Assembly (NCBI GenBank): GCA_005884765.1
Contig: VAZV01000142.1
Span: 1 to 64,000 of the forward strand
DNA from: Alphaproteobacteria bacterium
Lineage (GTDB): Bacteria; Pseudomonadota; Alphaproteobacteria; Rhizobiales; Xanthobacteraceae
Direction: 5' to 3'
DNA: 64,000 nucleotides
This document shows, in pieces, positions 1,841 through 10,442 of this stretch. A model generated the notes under the pieces. That model was not told the DNA's origin and searched no databases. It saw only the letters and a list, made by a program, of their open reading frames with translations. Both the position numbers and the translations under genes were made by a program. Positions within the stretch are counted from its first letter, which is position 1. The number at the start of each line of letters is the position of its first letter.

Positions 1841-3112
1841 CTAGAGGTTACTGTCGGTGATCGCCGCGTAGATCATGGTGCGCAGCTCGCGGCGGACCGG
1901 ATAGGCACTTGAGGGCAATAGCTGGGTCATGAAAATCGTGATCAGTTCTTCCGCCGGATCGATCCAAAACGCCGTCGAGGCCGCGCCGCCCCAGGCATAT
2001 TCACCGGGGCTGCCAGGAATCAGGGTCTTGGCCGGATCCATCGTGACGGAGACGCCGAGGCCGTACCCCACGCCGCTATTGGTGGCCTCGGAGAATAGCG
2101 ATCTCGACATTTCCGGCAGGTCGCGCCCGCCGGGAAGATGGTTCGATGTCATCAACTTGAGCGTCTTCGGACCGATCAGCCTCACGCCGTCCAGCTCGCC
2201 GCCATTGAGCAGCGCCCGGCAGAAGGTGAGATAGTCGGCCGCGGTCGAACACAATCCGCCGCCGCCGGAGAAGAGTTCAGGAGGAGAGAGGAACGAGCTC
2301 GTGACCGGATCGTCCTGCAGCGTCAAGTTGCCCTTGCGCTCGGTCGCAAGGAACGTCACGCCTTGCGGATCGGCCGAATAGCAGGCCGCGAAGCGATGGA
2401 CCTTGTCGGGTGGGACAAAGAAATCCGTGTCGTTCATCCCGAGCGGATCGAAGATGCGCTCCTTGAGGAACTGCTCGAACGGTTGGCCAGCGATCTTGCC
2501 GATGAGGTAGCCGATCACGTCGGTGGAGACCGAGTAATTCCAGGCCTCGCCCGGCGAGAATTCCAGCGGGATTTTCGTCAGCTCCTCGATCATCGTTTGC
2601 AGCGTGCCGGCCTTGACGAGGTCGCCGATTTTCTTTTCGCGGTAGGCGGCATCCACATTGGAGCGCTGCTGGAAACCGTAGGTCAGTCCCGAGGTGTGCC
2701 GCAATAGGTCCACAATCAACATCGGCCGCGACGGCGGCCTGGTCAGGAATGCCGGCGCAGTGCCGGCGACGAAGACGCCGAGGTTCTTCCATTCCGGGAT
2801 GTATCTGTGGACGGGCTCGTCGAGCGCGACGCGGCCTTCCTCAACCAGCATCATGAACGCCACAGAGGTGATCGGCTTGGTCATCGAATAAATGCGGAAG
2901 ATGGTGTCGTCCTTCAGCGGGACCTTGCGTTCGAGGTCGGCAAAGCCCTGCACCGCGCTATGGACGATGTTGCCGCGGCGGTAGACCATAAGCTGCGTTC
3001 CCGAAAAACGGCCGGCATCGACGTAGCGGCTCTTCAGGTGCCGTTCCAAACGGTCGAGCGCTGCCTTGGACATTCCTGCGGATTCGGGAGAAGCGGGGGT
3101 CGGGGCCAGCAT
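1841..3112 (-). CDS. Serine hydrolase, class C beta-lactamase-like esterase (EstB type)
   Basis: A serine hydrolase of the beta-lactamase / EstB / penicillin-binding-protein fold, probably an esterase and not a resistance enzyme. The S-x-x-K nucleophile motif is in RIYSMTKPI (Ser76, Lys79), the tyrosine motif is in WNYSVS, and the third box is WGGAAST, as in EstB-type esterases, where true beta-lactamases have K-T-G. No signal peptide is visible, which also favours a cytoplasmic esterase. The start is uncertain: ATG 3112 has GGAG nine bases upstream, ATG 3121 lies inside that ribosome-site region, and a TTG at 3175 would extend it further. It is divergent from the dioxygenase across a short intergenic region. 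The substrate cannot be read from sequence. Confidence 0.85.
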   Translation of the reverse strand: MLAPTPASPESAGMSKAALDRLERHLKSRYVDAGRFSGTQLMVYRRGNIVHSAVQGFADLERKVPLKDDTIFRIYSMTKPITSVAFMMLVEEGRVALDEPVHRYIPEWKNLGVFVAGTAPAFLTRPPSRPMLIVDLLRHTSGLTYGFQQRSNVDAAYREKKIGDLVKAGTLQTMIEELTKIPLEFSPGEAWNYSVSTDVIGYLIGKIAGQPFEQFLKERIFDPLGMNDTDFFVPPDKVHRFAACYSADPQGVTFLATERKGNLTLQDDPVTSSFLSPPELFSGGGGLCSTAADYLTFCRALLNGGELDGVRLIGPKTLKLMTSNHLPGGRDLPEMSRSLFSEATNSGVGYGLGVSVTMDPAKTLIPGSPGEYAWGGAASTAFWIDPAEELITIFMTQLLPSSAYPVRRELRTMIYAAITDSNL

Positions 3113-3254
3113 CGGAACCATCTCCAGGCGTTCAGGTTTGGCCCGTTGATAGCCGATATATGTGCTCCGTTCCAACTACTGCGCGTGCCTACCCTGGGCG
3201 CGGTTGCTGGTATAGGCTAAGGGGCTCCCCCAGGTATTTGCGAGGACAACAACA

Positions 3255-4169
3255 ATGCCTCAATTCAACGACACCGAACTCACCGCCGCCGTTATCCGCA
3301 GCTTCGAGGAGACGCCGGATCCGCGTGTCAAATTCCTGATGGAAGAGCTGGTGAAGTCGCTGCACGACTATGTGCGCAAGACCGATCTCACTTTCGACGA
3401 GTGGGGTTATGCCATCGATTTCCTGACCCGCGTCGGCCAGAAATGCACCCCGACCCGCCAGGAGTTCATCCTGCTCTCGGACGTGTTCGGGGTTTCGATG
3501 CTGGTCGATGCGGTCAACCATCGTGAGCGCGGAGGCGCGACTGAGACCACTGTACTCGGTCCGTTCTATGTCGGCGAGCACAAGAAGATGCCGCATGGAG
3601 CCGATATCTCGGCAAATCTCCCCGGTGAGCGGATGTTCGTGCAGAGCCGGGTCACCGATCTCAAGGGCAAGCCGCTCGCGGGCGTTCCGGTCGACGTCTG
3701 GCATGCCGACGATGATGGATTCTACGATTCGCAGAAGCCCTCTTACGAAACCCAAGGACCGTCATCGCGGGCGCGCTTCGTCACCGACGCCGATGGCCGT
3801 TTCTCCTTTCGCACCATCCTGCCCTGCAGCTATCCGATCCCGACCGACGGCCCGGTCGGCGAGATGATCCTGCAGACGCGACGGCATCCGATGCGGCCCG
3901 CGCATGTGCATTTCCTCGTCAACGCACCGGGTTACGAGCCGCTGATCACCCATGTCTTCATCGAGGGCGACAAATATCTCGATTCCGATGTGGTGTTCGG
4001 CGTCAAGGACGAACTCATCGCCAAGATCGAAAAACGCAGCGATCCGACCATGCCGGACGGCAAGAGGGCCGATGGTCCATGGCATCTGATGACCTACGAC
4101 TTCCGCGTGAAACCGGGTGAAGGTGCCGCGCCAACGCCGCTGGGAGTCAAAGTGACCGAGACGGTTTAA
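3255..4169 (+). CDS. Intradiol ring-cleavage dioxygenase (catechol / hydroxyquinol 1,2-dioxygenase family)
   Basis: A 304-aa non-haem Fe(III) dioxygenase that opens catecholic rings between the two hydroxyls. An N-terminal helical dimerisation domain fills about residues 10-95 and the beta-sandwich catalytic domain follows. The expected iron ligands are visible as Tyr157 (DDGFYD), Tyr193 (CSYPIPTDGP), His217 and His219 (RPAHVHF); the 36-residue Tyr-Tyr and 24-residue Tyr-His spacings match the family. The overall pattern resembles hydroxyquinol 1,2-dioxygenase more than catechol dioxygenase, but this is a reading by eye. No muconate cycloisomerase or maleylacetate reductase gene lies beside it, so it is not within a complete ring-cleavage operon here. 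Confidence 0.9.
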   Translation: MPQFNDTELTAAVIRSFEETPDPRVKFLMEELVKSLHDYVRKTDLTFDEWGYAIDFLTRVGQKCTPTRQEFILLSDVFGVSMLVDAVNHRERGGATETTVLGPFYVGEHKKMPHGADISANLPGERMFVQSRVTDLKGKPLAGVPVDVWHADDDGFYDSQKPSYETQGPSSRARFVTDADGRFSFRTILPCSYPIPTDGPVGEMILQTRRHPMRPAHVHFLVNAPGYEPLITHVFIEGDKYLDSDVVFGVKDELIAKIEKRSDPTMPDGKRADGPWHLMTYDFRVKPGEGAAPTPLGVKVTETV

Positions 4170-4252
4170 AGCGCGATAGCCTCCGCTACCGCCCTTTACA
4201 GTTATTGTTTGGAGCTGATCTCCGCTCAAACGTGTTCCTGTATGTCGCGAGG

Positions 4253-4280
4253 GAAACCGGGGTCCACTTTTCCGGATCAT
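4253..4280. repeat. Fragment of a GCATGATCCGGAAAA-type extragenic palindrome
   Basis: The stretch with GAAACC, a GGGTCCACTTTTCCGG core and GATCAT resembles one arm of an extragenic palindrome I know from Bradyrhizobium and Rhodopseudomonas intergenic regions. A fuller, diverged member lies at 46826-46901. Only one arm is present here. Family assignment is from memory. Confidence 0.45.
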
Positions 4281-4306
4281 CTTCAATATTCATTTTTTGG
4301 GCACTT

Positions 4307-4369
4307 GCTCATTTCTTGTGCGCCGCACAAGAAATGAGCGAATCGCCATTCAAGAAATAAGCGAATCGC
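4307..4369. repeat. Perfect 15-bp inverted repeat overlapping a 19-bp tandem direct repeat
   Basis: GCTCATTTCTTGTGC at 4307-4321 is followed by a 3-base spacer and its exact reverse complement at 4325-4339. The right arm also belongs to a direct repeat: 4328-4346 and 4351-4369 match at 18 of 19 bases (CAAGAAAT, one variable base, AGCGAATCGC). It sits about 100 bp upstream of the putative sigma-54 promoter of narK. No T-run follows on either strand, so I read it as a possible protein-binding array and not a terminator. The rest of the 444-bp gap (4170-4613) holds the elements listed below and no gene. Confidence 0.6.
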
Positions 4370-4457
4370 AAATTTTGCATGCGCTTAAGCTCCCGCCAAA
4401 AACTCAGACGATTCCTGCAACTTACTGAAAAAATTATAGATCTTGAGCTGCGGCGGG

Positions 4458-4474
4458 TTGGCACGAAGCTTGAA
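4458..4474 (+). promoter_or_regulatory. Putative sigma-54 (RpoN) -24/-12 promoter of the nitrate operon
   Basis: TTGGCACG at 4458-4465, four bases, then TTGAA at 4470-4474. The -24 half matches the RpoN consensus fully; the -12 half has A where consensus has C (TTGCW). Transcription would begin near 4484 and give a leader of about 130 nt before narK. Control of assimilatory nitrate genes by RpoN and NtrC is established for B. diazoefficiens; use of this site is inference. Confidence 0.55.
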
Positions 4475-4486
4475 TAGCTTGATGCC

Positions 4487-4504
4487 GACGCCATCGATGC
4501 CGTC
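4487..4504 (+). promoter_or_regulatory. Candidate ANTAR (NasT)-type hexaloop hairpin in the narK leader
   Basis: GACGCC (4487-4492) can pair with GCCGTC (4499-4504) with one C-C mismatch, exposing the six-base loop ATCGAT. Loop A at position 1 and G at position 4 are the conserved features of RNA targets of ANTAR antiterminators such as NasT/NasR. A convincing second hexaloop hairpin, normal for these targets, was not found; a weak AT-rich stem near 4512-4529 has the wrong loop size. Confidence 0.3.
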
Positions 4505-4540
4505 CTGCGAGCCAAATATCCGAAATTTTGATGCCGCCAA

Positions 4541-4555
4541 CCGGGGCCTCCCCGG
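4541..4555 (+). terminator. GC-rich hairpin in narK leader, possible attenuator
   Basis: CCGGGG pairs perfectly with CCCCGG around a 3-base loop, 59 bases before the narK start. There is no real U-tract after it, so it is a weak candidate for the leader terminator expected if the operon is controlled by antitermination. Confidence 0.3.
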
Positions 4556-4613
4556 AGCGCGCTGTTGTGCCTTCAAGCGCCCGCGACGAGCCCGCGGAGA
4601 AAGGAACTTTGTA

Positions 4614-5996
4614 ATGAGCGATCAGAGCCCGACCTGGATTTCAGATTGGAGACCAGAGGATGAGACCTTCTGGAACTCCAAGGGCAAATTCGTCGCCCGG
4701 CGCAATCTGATCTGGTCGATCGTTGCCGAACATATCGGATTTTCGGTCTGGCTGATCTGGAGCATCGTCGCGACCAAATTGCCCGCGGCCGGCTTTCATT
4801 TCTCGACCGATGAGTTGTTTCAGCTGGTGGCGTTGCCGGGGCTGATCGGCTCGCTGATGCGCTTTCCCTACACGTTCGCAGTGACGACGTTCGGTGGCCG
4901 CAACTGGACCATCTTCAGCGCCGCGGTGCTGTTCATCCCGACGCTAGCGCTCGCCTATTTCGTCAGCCACCCCGAGACGCCGTTCTGGCTGATGCTGCTG
5001 GTGGCCTCCACTGCCGGTCTCGGCGGCGGCAATTTTGCCTCCAGCATGGCCAACATCTCCTTCTTCTATCCCGACCGCATGAAGGGCTGGGCGCTCGGCT
5101 TGAACGCCGCCGGCGGCAATATCGGTGTCTCGAGCGTCCAATTGCTGACGCCAATCCTGATGGGAGCCGGCCTGATCAATCTCTATCAGGCCTCGCCGGT
5201 TGCAGGTGTCTACCTTCAGAACGCGGGACTGATGTGGATGCTGCCGCTGGCGATCGCGCTGTTCGGCGCGATCTTCTTCATGAACAACCTGACCTCGGCA
5301 AAGGCTTCGTTCAAGGATCAGGTCGCGATCGTCAAGCGCAAGCACACCTGGATCATGTCCTTCATCTACATCGGGACGTTCGGCTCCTTCATCGGTTACT
5401 CGGCCGCGTTTCCGCTTCTGATCAAGACGCAATTCCCGGCAGTCACCATCGCGATCGCGTTCATGGGACCGCTGGTGGGCTCGTTGTCGCGGCCATTGGG
5501 CGGCTTGCTCGCCGACAAGGTGGGTGGTGCGATCGTGACGTTCTGGAATTTCATCGCGATGGCGGCCGCGACGATCGGTGTGCTGTACTTTGTGGGCACG
5601 AAGGAATTCGCCGGCTTCCTGGTGATGTTCCTGATCCTGTTCGTCACCACCGGGGTCGGCAACGGATCGACCTACCGGATGATCCCCTCGATCTTCCGCG
5701 AGGAGAATCTGCGAAAAGCGCGAGGCCTCGGCGAGGCCGGCCATGCGGCGGCCCTGAAGGCTGCGAGCATCGAAAGCGGCGCCGCGCTCGGCTTCATCGG
5801 CGCCATCGGTGCCTGCGGCGGCTACCTGATCCCGTCCGGCTTCGGCAAGTCGATCGCCATCACCGGCGGTCCGCAGCTCGCGCTGGTCATCTACCTTGGC
5901 TTCTACGCGATCTGTCTGGCGTTCACCTGGTGGTTCTACCTGCGCCGCAGCCCTGCGGAAGCCGGCGTGCCGAGCCTCGCGGAAGCGCGCGTCTAG
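4614..5996 (+). CDS. narK: Nitrate/nitrite transporter, NarK family (MFS)
   Basis: A 460-aa, about 12-helix major facilitator of the nitrate/nitrite porter family, importing nitrate and/or exporting nitrite. The family's glycine-rich signature is visible in GLGGGNFASSM and GLNAAGGNIGVS, and again near GVGNGSTYRMIP in the second half. The open frame extends upstream to 4443, but the ATG at 4614 has AAGGAA at a good distance, begins a normal hydrophilic NarK N-terminus, and leaves room for the leader RNA. It is the first gene of narK - haemoglobin - flp - nasC, the order known for the assimilatory operon of B. diazoefficiens. Confidence 0.92.
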   Translation: MSDQSPTWISDWRPEDETFWNSKGKFVARRNLIWSIVAEHIGFSVWLIWSIVATKLPAAGFHFSTDELFQLVALPGLIGSLMRFPYTFAVTTFGGRNWTIFSAAVLFIPTLALAYFVSHPETPFWLMLLVASTAGLGGGNFASSMANISFFYPDRMKGWALGLNAAGGNIGVSSVQLLTPILMGAGLINLYQASPVAGVYLQNAGLMWMLPLAIALFGAIFFMNNLTSAKASFKDQVAIVKRKHTWIMSFIYIGTFGSFIGYSAAFPLLIKTQFPAVTIAIAFMGPLVGSLSRPLGGLLADKVGGAIVTFWNFIAMAAATIGVLYFVGTKEFAGFLVMFLILFVTTGVGNGSTYRMIPSIFREENLRKARGLGEAGHAAALKAASIESGAALGFIGAIGACGGYLIPSGFGKSIAITGGPQLALVIYLGFYAICLAFTWWFYLRRSPAEAGVPSLAEARV

Positions 5997-6014
5997 CGCC
6001 GTGTAGTTCGTCGT

Positions 6015-6042
6015 CCCCTCGTCCCACTAGCGGGGCGAGGGG
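6015..6042 (+). other. Strong intergenic hairpin between narK and the haemoglobin gene
   Basis: CCCCTCG at 6015-6021 pairs with CGAGGGG at 6036-6042, and the stem extends by TCCC/GGGG to about 11 bp around a 6-base loop. It ends a few bases before the AGGAG ribosome site of the next gene. With no U-run, it is more likely to protect or punctuate the mRNA than to terminate it. Confidence 0.5.
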
Positions 6043-6061: not shown

Positions 6062-6487
6062 ATGACACCCGACCAAGTCAAACTCGTGCAAGAGAGCTTC
6101 GCTAAAGTCGCGCCGATCGCCGATCAGGCAGCCACGATCTTCTATGGTCGACTGTTCGAGGTCGCGCCGCGGGTCAAGGCGATGTTTCCAACCGACATGG
6201 CCGAGCAGCGCAAGAAGCTGATGGCCACGTTGGCCGTCGTGGTGAACGGCCTTTCCAATCTCGCATCGGTGCTGCCAGCCGCGAGCGCGCTTGCAATCCG
6301 TCATGTCAGCTATGGCGCCAAGCCTGAGCACTATCCGGTGGTCGGCGGCGCCTTGCTGTGGACACTGGAAAAGGGACTGGGCGAGGACTGGACGCCCGAG
6401 GTCGCGGCAGCCTGGACCGCGGCCTACGGCACTTTGTCGGGCTATATGATTTCCGAAGCCTATGGGCGGCCTCAGGCCGCCGAGTGA
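6062..6487 (+). CDS. bjgb: Single-domain haemoglobin (Bjgb)
   Basis: A 141-aa bacterial single-domain globin. Phe42 (CD1 position, in AMFPTDM) and proximal His81 (IRHVSYG) are present, followed by the family's typical Tyr and Trp pattern. AGGAG lies just upstream of the ATG. In B. diazoefficiens the homologous gene sits between narK and flp and helps remove the nitric oxide formed during nitrate assimilation; the flavoprotein partner is encoded separately and not fused as in flavohaemoglobin. The identical gene order here supports the same job. Confidence 0.9.
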   Translation: MTPDQVKLVQESFAKVAPIADQAATIFYGRLFEVAPRVKAMFPTDMAEQRKKLMATLAVVVNGLSNLASVLPAASALAIRHVSYGAKPEHYPVVGGALLWTLEKGLGEDWTPEVAAAWTAAYGTLSGYMISEAYGRPQAAE

Positions 6488-6497
6488 GGTCGTTTTC

Positions 6498-7715
6498 GTG
6501 AGCGAAGCGCTGGTGATTGTCGGCAATGGCATGGCGGCCGCGCGTCTGGTCGACGAACTCGCGAAGACTGCGCTCGGCCGTTACGCCATCGCGGTGATCG
6601 GCGCCGAGCCGCGTTTGGCTTACAACCGCGTGCTGCTGTCGTCGGTGCTTGCGGGCGAGACCGCTTCCCATGACATCGAGCTCAACCCGGCCCGCTGGTG
6701 GCGCGACCGGGGCGTGACGCTGAAATATAACTGCCGAGCCACCGAGATCGATCTCGGCCGCCGCGAACTCAAGATCGAAAATGAAGAGAGCATTGCGTTT
6801 TCGAAGCTGATCCTTGCCACCGGCTCGGCGCCGTTGCGGCTCAACGTACCAGGCGCCGATCTCGCCGGCGTCCACACCTTTCGCGACAGCCGCGATGTCG
6901 ATCTCCTGCTGACGCTCGCAACCCGGAAGAAGCGAGTGGTGGTGGTCGGCGGCGGCCTGTTGGGATTGGAAGCGGCCTACGGTCTTGCCAAGGCCGGCGC
7001 GCAGGTCGACCTGATCCACCTGATGGACCGCCTAATGGAGCGCCAGCTCGATGCACCCGCCGCGGCGCTCTTGAAATCGCTGGTCGAACGCAAGGGCATC
7101 AGGATTCTCTTGAATGCCAATACCGCGCGGATCCACGGCGAGTCCCGCGTCGAGGCCGTCGAGCTCGTGGACGGGCGGCGGATCGAGGCGGACGCCGTGA
7201 TTTTCGCAGCCGGCATCCGGCCCAATGTTGCGCTGGCCAAGGAAGCCGGCCTATCGGTCAATCGCGGCGTCGTCGTCGACGATCATCTAAAGACCAGCGC
7301 GGCCGATGTATTCGCGCTCGGGGAATGCGCCGAGCATCGCGACATTTGCTACGGACTGGTCGAGCCGGCTTACGAACAGGCGGGCGTTCTGGCGCGGCAT
7401 CTCGCGGGTCACAATGCGGCCTACCGGGGCAGCGTCGTTGCGACCAATCTGAAAGTGTCGGGTGTCAGCGTGTTTTCGGGCGGCGATTTCATGGGCGAGG
7501 GCGGCAGCGAGACCATCGTGCTCTCCGACGTCAAGCACGGCACCTACAAGAAGCTGGTCGTCGCCGAGGGCCGGCTCACCGGCGCGGTACTGGTCGGCGA
7601 TGTAACCGACGCGCTCTGGTATCTCGAACTGATCCGCTCGCGCGAACCGATCGCGAGAATCCGCCCCGACATGATGTTCGGCCGTGCGCTCGCGCTTTCA
7701 TCCAAGGCGGCCTGA
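6498..7715 (+). CDS. flp: FAD-dependent NAD(P)H oxidoreductase (Flp), nitrate operon
   Basis: A 405-aa pyridine-nucleotide-disulfide-type flavoprotein. An FAD-binding GxGxxA motif opens the protein (VIVGNGMAAARL), and a second Rossmann motif (VVVVGGGLLGLEAAYG) at about residues 150-165 binds NAD(P)H. It resembles the FAD domain of NirB-type nitrite reductases and rubredoxin reductases. I chose the GTG at 6498, ten bases after the globin stop; an ATG at 6462 would overlap the globin by 26 bases. In the characterised homologous operon, Flp supplies electrons to nitrate reductase NasC and to the haemoglobin. Confidence 0.88.
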   Translation: MSEALVIVGNGMAAARLVDELAKTALGRYAIAVIGAEPRLAYNRVLLSSVLAGETASHDIELNPARWWRDRGVTLKYNCRATEIDLGRRELKIENEESIAFSKLILATGSAPLRLNVPGADLAGVHTFRDSRDVDLLLTLATRKKRVVVVGGGLLGLEAAYGLAKAGAQVDLIHLMDRLMERQLDAPAAALLKSLVERKGIRILLNANTARIHGESRVEAVELVDGRRIEADAVIFAAGIRPNVALAKEAGLSVNRGVVVDDHLKTSAADVFALGECAEHRDICYGLVEPAYEQAGVLARHLAGHNAAYRGSVVATNLKVSGVSVFSGGDFMGEGGSETIVLSDVKHGTYKKLVVAEGRLTGAVLVGDVTDALWYLELIRSREPIARIRPDMMFGRALALSSKAA

Positions 7716-7736: not shown

Positions 7737-10442
7737 ATGACGGCGATCGATCCCTCCCTTCGCGCCACCCGCACGACTTGTCCCTATTGCGGTGTCGGCT
7801 GCGGCGTGCTGGCGACGCCCGATAACAACGGCGGCGCCGCCATCTCGGGCGATCCGGACCATCCCGCCAATCTGGGGCGGCTGTGCTCGAAGGGCTCGGC
7901 GCTCGGCGAAACGCTCAGCCTCGAGGGCCGGCTGCTTTATCCGATGATCCGCTGCGGCAAGGGCGTGATGGAGCGGGTCGCCTGGAGCGACGCGCTCGAC
8001 CACGTCGCCCACCGGCTCCAGCATATCATCGCGCGCGACGGCGCCGATGCGGTCGCGTTCTATCTCTCCGGGCAATTGCTGACCGAGGATTATTACGTCG
8101 CCAACAAGCTGATGAAGGGATTCATCGGCTCGGCCAATGTCGACACCAATTCGCGGCTCTGCATGTCTTCAACGGTTGCGGGCCATCGCCGCGCCTTCGG
8201 CGCCGACACTGTGCCCGGCTGTTATGAGGATCTCGACGAAGCCGACCTCCTGGTGCTGGTCGGCTCGAACGCGGCGTGGTGCCATCCGGTGTTGTACCAG
8301 CGCATGCTCGCCAACAAGCAGAGGCGCGGCGCGCGCATAATCGTGATCGATCCGCGCCGGACCGACACCGCGACAGACGCCGATCTCTTCTTGGGCGTCA
8401 GGCCCGGTTCCGACAGCGCGCTGTTTTGCGGATTGCTGGTGCATCTTGCGGACAACGGCGCGCTCGATGCCAACTATATCGAGGCGCACACCGCAGGCTT
8501 CGACGAGGCGCTGGCGCGGGCCCGGAGCATGGCGGGAAGCGCAGCTGCCACGGCGCTCGCGACCGGTCTTGCGGAAGCAGAGGTGGCGGCGTTCTTTGCG
8601 ATGTTCCGTGACACGGCGCGGGTGGTCACGCTTTATTCGCAAGGCGTCAACCAGTCGGCGCAGGGCACCGACAAGGTCAACGCCATTCTCAACTGCCATC
8701 TCGCCACGGCACGGATCGGCAAGGTGGGCGCCTCGCCGTTCTCGTTGACCGGCCAACCCAACGCCATGGGCGGCCGCGAGGTCGGCGGACTCGCCAACCA
8801 GCTCGCGGCGCATATGGGTTTCACGCCGCCGGACATCGACCGCGTGCGCCGGTTCTGGAAGGCGCCGCGCATCGCGACCCATGAGGGGCTCAAGGCAGTC
8901 CAGATGTTCGAGGCGATCGGTCGCGGCGAGATCAAGGCGTTGTGGGTGATGGGCACCAATCCGGCGGTGTCGTTGCCGAACGCCGATGCCGCGCGCGAAG
9001 CGTTGAAGAAGCTCGAACTGTTCGTGGTTTCGGAGAATGTGCGGTCCAATGACACCGTCGAGGCAGGTCCGCATGTGCTGTTGCCCGCGCTGGCCTGGGG
9101 CGAGAAGTCGGGAACGGTGACCAATTCGGAGCGGCGGATTTCCCGGCAGCGCCCGTTTTTGGCCGCGCCGGGGGAAGCCAGGCCCGATTGGTGGATCCTC
9201 GGCGAGGTGGCGAAGCGCCTCGGTTTCGGGCACGCGTTCAATTTCAATTCCGCTGCCGAGATATTCCGCGAGCATGCGGCACTATCGGCGTTCGAGAACG
9301 ATGGCGGCCGGGATTTCGATATCGGCGCGTTTCAATCGATATCGGAGGATGCTTTCGAGGCATTGGACCCCGTGCTGTGGCCGAACCGGCCAGGCGATAG
9401 CGAACCGCAGCCGCGCTTCTTCGCCGATGGCGGGTTCTATGGCAGCGACCGCAGGGCGCGCTTCGCGGCGCCCGATATTCCGGCGCTGCGAACTGAAACC
9501 CATGCCGGCCGGCCGCTGCGGCTTAATACCGGCCGAATCCGCGATCAGTGGCACACCATGACGCGCAGCGGAATGAGCCCGCGATTGGGCTCGCATTTGG
9601 CGGAGCCGTTCGTCGAGATCCATCCCGACGATGCGACCAAATTCGGCATCACCGACGACAGCTTTGCGCGTGTCGTCACCGACTACGGCGAATGCATTCT
9701 CAAAGTGGCCGTCAATGCGCGCCAGCAGCGCGGCATGCTGTTTGCGCCGATCCATTGGAGCCAAGCGACCGCATCGAACGCGCGCGTCGGCGCGCTGATT
9801 TCGCCGCACACCGATCCGTTCTCCGGGCAGCCCGAGAGCAAGGCGACGCCGGCATCGATTGCGCCTTATGAATATGTGTTCCGCGGCTTTGTACTGTCGC
9901 GGGTGCCGCTGCAATTGCCCGCCCACCTCTGGTGGGCGCGCGCCACGGTCTCGGGCGGTTACGCCTATTTGTTCGCCGACAATGCCGATCTCTTGCGATG
10001 GCCGTCATGGTTGCAACCCTTCGCCGGCGAGGATTTGGCCGAATACCGCGATTTCGGCGGCGGCGTTTATCGCGCGGCCTCGTTCGCGCAGGGGCGCATC
10101 GAAACCTGTCTGTTCGTTGGCCCCGCCCACGATGCCGGCGACTGGGAGGTGGTCAAGAATCTGTTTGCCGCAGATCGGCTCAGTGATGACGAGCGGCGGA
10201 TGTTGCTGTCGGGCAAAGCGGCGGACGGCCTGGCGGGTGCCGGCCCCATCGTCTGCGCCTGTTTTGGCGTCGGGCGCACCACGATCTGCAACGCGGTCGC
10301 GGCCGGCGCAAATAGCGCCGCCGAGATCGGTGCGCGGCTAAAGGCCGGCACCAATTGCGGCTCGTGTCTTCCGGAATTGAAGCGGCTGATCGCGCAGGCT
10401 GATGCGAGTGCCGTACCGCAGCAACTGGCGGCCGCTCACTGA
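7737..10442 (+). CDS. nasC: Assimilatory nitrate reductase catalytic subunit (NasC)
   Basis: A 901-aa molybdopterin bis-MGD oxidoreductase that reduces nitrate to nitrite in the cytoplasm. Cys15, Cys18, Cys22 and Cys50 (TTCPYCGVGCG ... LGRLCSKG) form the N-terminal 4Fe-4S site. The molybdopterin domains follow, with the dinucleotide-binding domain near residues 590-710. The C-terminus carries a BFD-like 2Fe-2S motif (VCACFGVG ... NCGSCLPE), as in Nas enzymes that receive electrons from a separate flavoprotein. No twin-arginine signal is present, fitting an assimilatory and not periplasmic enzyme. It starts 21 bases after flp and ends the operon; no nitrite reductase gene follows. Confidence 0.93.
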   Translation: MTAIDPSLRATRTTCPYCGVGCGVLATPDNNGGAAISGDPDHPANLGRLCSKGSALGETLSLEGRLLYPMIRCGKGVMERVAWSDALDHVAHRLQHIIARDGADAVAFYLSGQLLTEDYYVANKLMKGFIGSANVDTNSRLCMSSTVAGHRRAFGADTVPGCYEDLDEADLLVLVGSNAAWCHPVLYQRMLANKQRRGARIIVIDPRRTDTATDADLFLGVRPGSDSALFCGLLVHLADNGALDANYIEAHTAGFDEALARARSMAGSAAATALATGLAEAEVAAFFAMFRDTARVVTLYSQGVNQSAQGTDKVNAILNCHLATARIGKVGASPFSLTGQPNAMGGREVGGLANQLAAHMGFTPPDIDRVRRFWKAPRIATHEGLKAVQMFEAIGRGEIKALWVMGTNPAVSLPNADAAREALKKLELFVVSENVRSNDTVEAGPHVLLPALAWGEKSGTVTNSERRISRQRPFLAAPGEARPDWWILGEVAKRLGFGHAFNFNSAAEIFREHAALSAFENDGGRDFDIGAFQSISEDAFEALDPVLWPNRPGDSEPQPRFFADGGFYGSDRRARFAAPDIPALRTETHAGRPLRLNTGRIRDQWHTMTRSGMSPRLGSHLAEPFVEIHPDDATKFGITDDSFARVVTDYGECILKVAVNARQQRGMLFAPIHWSQATASNARVGALISPHTDPFSGQPESKATPASIAPYEYVFRGFVLSRVPLQLPAHLWWARATVSGGYAYLFADNADLLRWPSWLQPFAGEDLAEYRDFGGGVYRAASFAQGRIETCLFVGPAHDAGDWEVVKNLFAADRLSDDERRMLLSGKAADGLAGAGPIVCACFGVGRTTICNAVAAGANSAAEIGARLKAGTNCGSCLPELKRLIAQADASAVPQQLAAAH

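Follow-up and report, generated by a model that had tools for sequence, protein, structure and literature searches.

The window, a 64,000-nt stretch of contig VAZV01000142.1 from the draft genome of a Bradyrhizobium-like member of the Xanthobacteraceae (assembly GCA_005884765.1), carries a narK-globin-flp-nasC operon whose first ATG, that of narK, lies at position 4614 (Table 1). The same gene order is described for Bradyrhizobium diazoefficiens in the available text of PMC4724949. The first ATG of flp overlaps the globin ORF, and the true start of flp may lie downstream. Between narK and the globin gene, a stem-loop (CCCCTCG...CGAGGGG) occupies positions 6015 to 6042, a region in which no hexaloop with A at position 1 and G at position 4 (A1/G4) on a stem of at least four pairs was found; a NasT hairpin has been predicted for bjgb in B. 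diazoefficiens (PMC6759348, narK-bjgb passages). In front of narK, a GTG at position 4567 opens a 15-codon frame, a possible leader peptide, the TAA of which overlaps the narK ATG; in one relative (L116), the ATG matching this GTG is followed by a stop after two codons. Additionally, 14 genomes of the genus encode a second NarK type (50 to 52% identical) in open frames of about 900 to 970 aa, perhaps a NarK fusion.

Table 1. Features of the narK control region and operon (window positions).
Feature	Position	Strand	Basis or remark
NtrC-like enhancer site 1, GCTCATTTCTTGTGC (GC-N11-GC)	4307..4321	+	
NtrC-like enhancer site 2, GCACAAGAAATGAGC (GC-N11-GC)	4325..4339	+	
Weaker third GC-N11-GC site, GCAAATTTTGCATGC	4368..4382	+	Further down than usual, behind direct repeat
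-24/-12 promoter TGGCAC-N5-TTGAA, TGGCACGAAGCTTGAA	4459..4474	+	Pattern and conservation; TTGAATAG extends to 4477
Predicted transcript start (+1)	4485	+	Inferred from -13 G at 4472
ANTAR-type hairpin P1	4487..4504	+	GACG/CGTC, C.C mismatch, C:G closing pair, hexaloop ATCGAT (A1, G4)
Degenerate second-hairpin candidate GCC-AACCGG-GGC	4536..4547	+	A1 but C4, fails A1/G4 rule; overlaps attenuator 5' arm
Putative attenuator stem CCGGGG-CCT-CCCCGG, no U-tract	4541..4555	+	Covariation
Weak second A1/G4 candidate CGG-AGCGCG-CTG	4553..4564	+	3 pairs, one G-U, G:C-closed; overlaps attenuator 3' arm
narK, NarK-type nitrate/nitrite transporter (MFS)	4614..5996	+	NarK/NarU models match, below curated cutoffs
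Single-domain globin ORF, in place of bjgb	6062..6487	+	Named from position and sequence by eye
flp, pyridine-nucleotide-disulfide oxidoreductase	6462..7715	+	Family models
nasC-type molybdopterin nitrate reductase, BFD-like 2Fe-2S domain	7737..10442	+	NCBIfam NasC model match below its cutoff

Because the promoter, the hairpin, and the fold upstream of narK are each weak when taken singly, conservation decides whether the module is real. A DNA search with positions 4440 to 4640 gave a match in 133 of 146 genomes of the genus. For the 110 of 136 listed places that were fetched (the 26 left were all at E values of 1.9e-11 or weaker), the next gene was nrtA in 90 cases, narK in 17, and neither in 3; nrtA, which encodes the substrate-binding protein of a nitrate ABC transporter, is the usual neighbor of the closest relatives of the leader. 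Among 110 narK loci, 81 combined a narK gene at 81% identity or more with an upstream stretch of 300 nt or longer, and 69 of them were distinct. In all 69 distinct close narK upstreams, the promoter (TGGCA-N6-TTG) and the hairpin occur at near-fixed spacing. The module is a real conserved regulatory region, and the leader conservation that the sequence-only reading had named as a check is found in both collections. Judged from these sequences, both nrtA and narK can carry such a leader in Bradyrhizobium.

Beyond the genus, a covariance model (R1) matched 86 of 341 family genomes at an E value of 0.01 in a search run with stricter filters; a second genus (g26) contributed 17 of these. Strong matches occurred in this genus and in g26, while 15 others had E values of 5e-4 to 9.5e-3, two of which were read. 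In g26, the promoter, the hairpin, and the enhancer pair described below were present in 17 of 18 stretches; the 18th, cut by a contig end, has the promoter and the hairpin. The downstream gene in that genus was nrtA in 17 of 18 stretches, with the remaining one too short to tell. Two stretches from further genera (L300 and L301), located between nasS and nrtA, keep TTGAATAG without the GACGCC hairpin; L300 carries GGTCC-AACGAC-GGACC, and at the end of both, by eye, a T-rich tract comes after a GC stem. The GACGCC hairpin was found in none of ten more distant narK upstreams; L052 and L054, two of the ten, each contain two or more A1/G4 hexaloops when one stem mismatch is allowed.

In many genomes, two model matches lie about 3.5 kb apart. 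In B. diazoefficiens, nrtABC (blr2803-05) lies upstream of narK, whereas no NrtA orthologue was found in the present draft (95.7% complete; best match at 34% identity, one match being NasS). In a weakly supported tree of 103 of 158 promoter-leader stretches, the narK leader of the window, alone among 36 narK leaves, has an nrtA leader as its nearest leaf. These sequences hint that a loss of nrtABC put narK behind the nrtA promoter-leader, which is plausible.

The sequence-only reading had placed a sigma54-like site with one -12 mismatch at positions 4458 to 4474, and the letters are as described (TTGGCACGAAGCTTGAA). The consensus TGGCAC-N5-TTGCW is matched except for the C of the -12 element, which is A here (TTGAA instead of TTGCA/T), and the chance expectation of TGGCAY-N5-TTGMW in the window is 0.22. 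The longer form TGGCAY-N5-TTGAAT-N-G has three matches in the 6.65-Mb draft genome and none in the control. Two of the three precede nitrate/nitrite assimilation operons, namely, narK and an FNT-nirA operon behind nasT-nasS. The third copy, TGGCAT-N5-TTGAATAG, lies on the minus strand of contig C206 (positions 2774 to 2792; L233), and the ORF behind it is without a recognizable nitrogen function. The rpoN gene, encoding RpoN, is present in the genome.

Upstream of this site, GC-N11-GC dyads are arranged in tandem, as in an NtrC enhancer. The two sites form GCTCATTTCTTGTGC-GCC-GCACAAGAAATGAGC, with the dyads 3 bp apart in a 33-bp palindrome located 120 to 152 nt upstream of -24. Of 158 distinct upstreams, 156 have such a pair no more than 260 nt from -24 (1.2 in mononucleotide shuffles), and the pair at 4307 to 4339 did not recur in 100 shuffles of the window. 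The core motif is at -140 in 14 distinct upstreams, the stretch being 25 bp longer, and -115 is the commoner place. Of the 154 upstreams with the core motif, 132 also have the third dyad at its customary offset. The enhancer region also contains a near-identical direct repeat, AAGAAATGAGCGAATCGC (4329 to 4347) and AAGAAATAAGCGAATCGC (4352 to 4370). The dyad spacing fits that of enteric NtrC sites. It likewise fits the Paracoccus denitrificans NtrC site as given in part of PMC5424462, in spacing and not in every letter. Single dyads (GCNCA-N5-TGNGC) are common, with 226 in the genome and 99 in the control. The perfect dyad GCACAATTCTTGTGC, also of this type and about 20 bp in front of dusB/nifR3 (L245:1746-1760), is a candidate NtrC autoregulation site; according to the Caulobacter data that we draw on from PMC10274813, dusB/nifR3 belongs to the ntrC operon there, and NtrC ChIP peaks occur at the narK promoter and at nasT. 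Among five other single dyads whose surroundings were read, only the one at dusB adjoins a recognized nitrogen-regulation gene, and the other four adjoin none.

An alternative is that the -24/-12 letters are coincidental and that another factor, e.g., a FixK/RegR-type activator with sigma70, starts the operon. The -12 element would speak for this explanation: TTG is followed by A in 155 and by T in 3 of the 158 distinct upstreams, and never by C. However, five of the ten more distant narK upstreams do carry TTGC at -12 (L046, L050, L051, L052, and L054), with TTGT in one (L049) and no promoter match in four. TGGCA-N6-TTG is present in all 107 leaders that fit the hairpin pattern (first set) and in all 69 narK leaders, while the letters of the spacer drift; a promoter scan of positions 4170 to 4700 found no sigma70-type site; and the enhancer-like tandem sites stand upstream. 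We consider a coincidental promoter highly improbable. With a sigma54-type promoter, the standard spacing, together with the distance from the -13 G to the first G of the hairpin (among 107 leaders of the first set, 14 nt in 63, 15 nt in 43, and 17 nt in one; 14 or 15 nt in 68 of 69 narK leaders), places the predicted start near 4485. This argues for a transcript on which the hexaloop hairpin, beginning at about +2, would be the first thing made.

The hairpin itself, proposed beforehand from its ATCGAT hexaloop (A1, G4), is present letter for letter at 4487 to 4504 as GACGCC-ATCGAT-GCCGTC with a single C.C mismatch; 0.11 copies of the pattern with up to one mismatch are expected in the window by chance. 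With up to two mismatches, a genome-wide search gave 536 matches against 233 in the control and was not used. The pattern GACGCC-N6-GCCGTC, a C:G-closed hexaloop over a short stem, fits 107 of the 110 fetched leaders (two others have one changed base in the 3' arm, and one is disrupted) and 69 of 69 narK leaders. Among 150 distinct pooled leaders, obtained with a search pattern that fixed the stem and left the loop free, position 1 of the loop is A and position 4 is G in every case. The remaining positions vary (position 2, T105/A37/C7/G1; position 3, T78/C71/A1; position 5, A144/T5/C1; position 6, C61/A57/T32). A at position 1 and G at position 4 is the rule given for ANTAR hexaloops in the relevant part of PMC3369931, and the C:G closing pair also appears in the NasR SELEX motif (PMC7496416, as excerpted).

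The position under the closing pair is C.C in 30 and C.A in 39 of 69 narK leaders and is never paired; the stem mismatch that had been raised as a caveat is thus conserved and never repaired. No letter of the P1 stem changes in an alignment (A2) the 47 rows of which were drawn from 63 chosen representatives, 16 having been omitted to keep the model small. Since the stem never varies, covariation neither supports nor opposes its pairing. Both P1 and the GC stem appear in the predicted structure of the 129-nt leader, which folds no better than shuffled sequences (z, +0.45; 141 of 200 shuffles matched or exceeded its stability). An Rfam scan of positions 3000 to 6000 gave matches far below gathering scores and no ANTAR-like family.

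An invariant stem is also what would be expected of a DNA site, and the 18-bp GACGCCATCGATGCCGTC, which begins at about +2 and is palindromic in the window apart from one C.C position, could be an operator just downstream of the promoter, with the leader RNA playing no part. The loop data speak against a DNA palindrome, because positions 1 and 6 and positions 3 and 4 are noncomplementary in many leaders: opposite the constant A1, the dyad partner at position 6 can be A, T, or C, and opposite the constant G4, position 3 can be C, T, or A. In relatives, the center is mostly nonpalindromic (ATTGAA in 53 of 107). The downstream GC stem, moreover, covaries, and published narK control, as far as the reports used here describe it, needs NasT, an RNA-binding protein. 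There is little likelihood of an operator, and we regard GACGCCATCGATGCCGTC as a probable RNA hairpin.

The GC-rich stem that had been pointed out at 4541 to 4555 is likewise in place. About 45 to 75 nt after the hairpin start, 107 of 107 leaders have a stem with 5 or more pairs, compared with 62% of mononucleotide shuffles, and one of at least 6 pairs occurs at that place in 93% of leaders, compared with 33% of shuffles. Its versions are compensatory (CCGGGG/CCCCGG, CTGGGG/CCCCAG, CAGGGG/CCCCTG, GACGGGG/CCCCGTC, and TCCGAGG/CCTCGGA). In A2, 17 cells changed on both sides, compared with 4.3 in shuffles (none of 500 reaching 17) and 8 in the best slid control. In a second alignment (A1; 69 rows), the 17 double-change cells rise to 19 when the 3' partners are slid by one column, and 93.0% of the cells are paired for the structure, compared with 39.5% when slid by one column. 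The covariation term of RNAalifold on A1 is near zero (-0.12) because the MAFFT alignment splits the stem. The sequence-only reading had looked to covariation as a check of the leader: this holds for the GC stem, and the hexaloop stem, being invariant, cannot covary. The GC stem has no U-tract and was not scored as an intrinsic terminator in a terminator scan. At positions 4556 to 4569, the place for a U-tract, a CGCGC-type stretch and then TG are common to relatives, and the G of this TG is invariant (69 of 69 in A1); the CGCG letters may be part of the weak second hexaloop of Table 1.

A second hairpin had been described as missing from the leader, and conservation agrees: the second hairpin is not conserved across leaders, although in the narK leader here a weak A1/G4 candidate exists, to which the sequence-only reading did not point. 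Among 107 leaders, A1/G4 hexaloops with 3 or more pairs do not recur at any fixed position downstream of P1. Such a hexaloop occurs anywhere downstream in 55 of the 107, at scattered places, and this count is not above background, 15 other pairs of letters having given 6 to 99. On the 5' arm of the GC stem, a C:G-closed A1/G4 hexaloop was found in 5 of 163 leaders, the narK leader of the window not among them, and the degenerate form CC-ANNCNN-GG is common there (A1/C4 in 60 of 85 nrtA leaders). On the 3' arm, the A1/G4 candidate has at least 3 pairs in 4 and at least 2 pairs in 53 of 165 leaders; C1/G4 loops are as common at this place (69 of 165), and A1/G4 occurs there in 0 of 17 leaders of g26. 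As read from sequence, the leader departs from a canonical ANTAR target in lacking a conserved second A1/G4 hairpin and a U-tract, in the conserved mismatch below its closing pair, and in the TTGA of its -12 element. Since neither a conserved second hairpin nor a U-tract was found, we do not class it as a canonical dual-hairpin ANTAR element.

The position of the hairpin at about +2 and the lack of both a U-tract and a conserved second hairpin would also suit an action of NasT on RNA stability or translation instead of antitermination, in which case the GC stem would be no terminator; a subset of ANTAR targets has been proposed to act on translation (PMC3369931, in the text at hand). This explanation is improbable in our judgment, since the GC stem is kept by compensatory change and ends 58 nt upstream of the narK ATG, and the published fusion that required NasT was transcriptional (PMC4724949, reporter results). 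We retain antitermination as the preferred role of NasT at this leader.

Genes for the proposed trans-acting factors were identified elsewhere in the genome. The sequence-only reading had suggested looking there for nasS-nasT, and the pair is present on contig C92. The genome contains one ANTAR gene, the NasT-like nasT, which is followed by nasS, an FNT transporter gene, nirA, and a gene for a sulfite-reductase-alpha-type flavoprotein (L230:1900-8251); the flavoprotein beside NirA might be its electron donor. The FNT-nirA leader combines the same promoter form (TGGCACATGATTTGAATAG) with a perfect tcagc-AACGAG-gctga hexaloop, and GC-N11-GC sites lie at -111 and -92 from its promoter match. The draft yielded no full-length NtrC; of two full-length relatives, both with scores under the NtrC cutoff, one is NtrX. 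NtrX passes its own family cutoff and stands beside an ORF in the place of ntrY, behind which an NtrC-like fragment reaches the contig edge.

Published work on B. diazoefficiens, so far as the excerpts of these reports go, bears directly on the orthologous operon. A narK-lacZ fusion carrying a 520-bp promoter fragment was undetectable without NasT and was high without nitrate in a nasS mutant (PMC4724949), and a 2019 study predicted NasT hairpins for both the narK and the bjgb leader (PMC6759348). Under denitrifying conditions, however, narK-bjgb-flp expression rose in a nasT mutant (PMC6759348), so that the published expression data are opposite under the two growth conditions in the text available to us. 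The NasT-dependent narK expression of Cabrera et al. (2016) is a likeness to the reading given here, as is the occurrence of the same module before narK in L043, a strain named B. diazoefficiens. In contrast, the B. diazoefficiens hairpin has loop AACGAC with a C.A mismatch, compared with ATCGAT and C.C here. The narK hairpin predicted by Sanchez et al. (2019) may be the counterpart of P1. This earlier prediction, the NtrC-like enhancer, and nrtA as the usual neighbor were all absent from the sequence-only reading. We found no description of the enhancer pair, the -12 variant, or the nrtA leader in literature searches that were aimed at other features and had most subscription journals outside their scope.

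Other nitrate and ANTAR systems resemble the leader in part. Klebsiella oxytoca nasF (NasR) likewise pairs Ntr-controlled initiation with nitrate-responsive ANTAR antitermination at an A1/G4 hexaloop with a C:G closing pair, as outlined in the partial sources used here. Unlike the narK leader, with its one conserved hairpin and no U-tract, nasF has two hairpins and an intrinsic terminator, and its NasR senses nitrate itself, whereas a two-protein NasS-NasT system is present here. P. denitrificans nasA provides an alphaproteobacterial NasS-NasT example: in the relevant passages, NasT binds the nasA leader RNA (PMC3795266), and a strain altered in leader hairpin HI lost growth on nitrate (PMC5424462). 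There, HI and HII lie 137 and 91 bp upstream of nasA, next to nasTS, whereas here the hairpin stands at the predicted 5' end of the RNA and nasTS is on another contig. The Enterococcus faecalis eut (EutV) leaders share the A1/G4 hexaloop but have dual hexaloops with P2 embedded in the terminator, compared with only weak candidates at the attenuator arms here. As reported in the sections cited, both hexaloops were needed for antitermination in the eut system (PMC8934654 and PMC3369931), a single hexaloop was redefined as the minimal ANTAR binding motif (PMC8934654), and NasR bound a single hairpin about tenfold more weakly (PMC7496416).

Taken as a whole, the conserved narK control region probably combines an NtrC/sigma54 promoter with a NasT antitermination leader, a reading to which we assign a probability of roughly 0.7. 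Leader conservation, the A1/G4 loop, covariation of the GC stem, and the presence of nasS-nasT all support the idea, put forward in the sequence-only reading, of a NasT-type ANTAR leader. From what was directly observed (the parts, their spacing and conservation, the covariation of the attenuator stem, and the presence of nasT, nasS, and rpoN), we infer NtrC, sigma54, and NasT as the binding proteins and the GC stem as the transcription stop; the direction of the nitrate effect would follow by analogy with the published B. diazoefficiens reporter data. Under nitrogen limitation, the first gate would open when phosphorylated NtrC on the tandem sites at 4307 to 4339 activates sigma54 polymerase at -24/-12, giving a transcript from about 4485. 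The second gate would respond to nitrate through the hexaloop hairpin with which this RNA begins. Without nitrate, NasS would hold NasT, the GC stem would form, and transcription would stop before narK; with nitrate, NasT would be released and bind the hexaloop, and polymerase would read through. In this respect, the region would function like the leaders of K. oxytoca nasF and P. denitrificans nasA.

More speculatively, the leaders might represent a single-hairpin ANTAR class in at least two genera, marked by a hexaloop at the 5' end of a sigma54 transcript, an obligatory mismatch below the closing pair, and a U-less covarying stem, in which NasT antitermination proceeds without a conserved second hairpin or a classical intrinsic terminator; we hold this generalization only tentatively and think it rather unlikely in full. 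The EutV structural work, in the portion considered here, makes one hexaloop the minimal binding site and two the requirement for antitermination, and this leader family may manage with one. For a large group of soil and nodule bacteria, the likely cis-acting sites of nitrate assimilation control can now be named, and the reading predicts that a double gate, nitrogen shortage plus nitrate, would be shared by nrtABC, narK-nasC, and the nirA operon.
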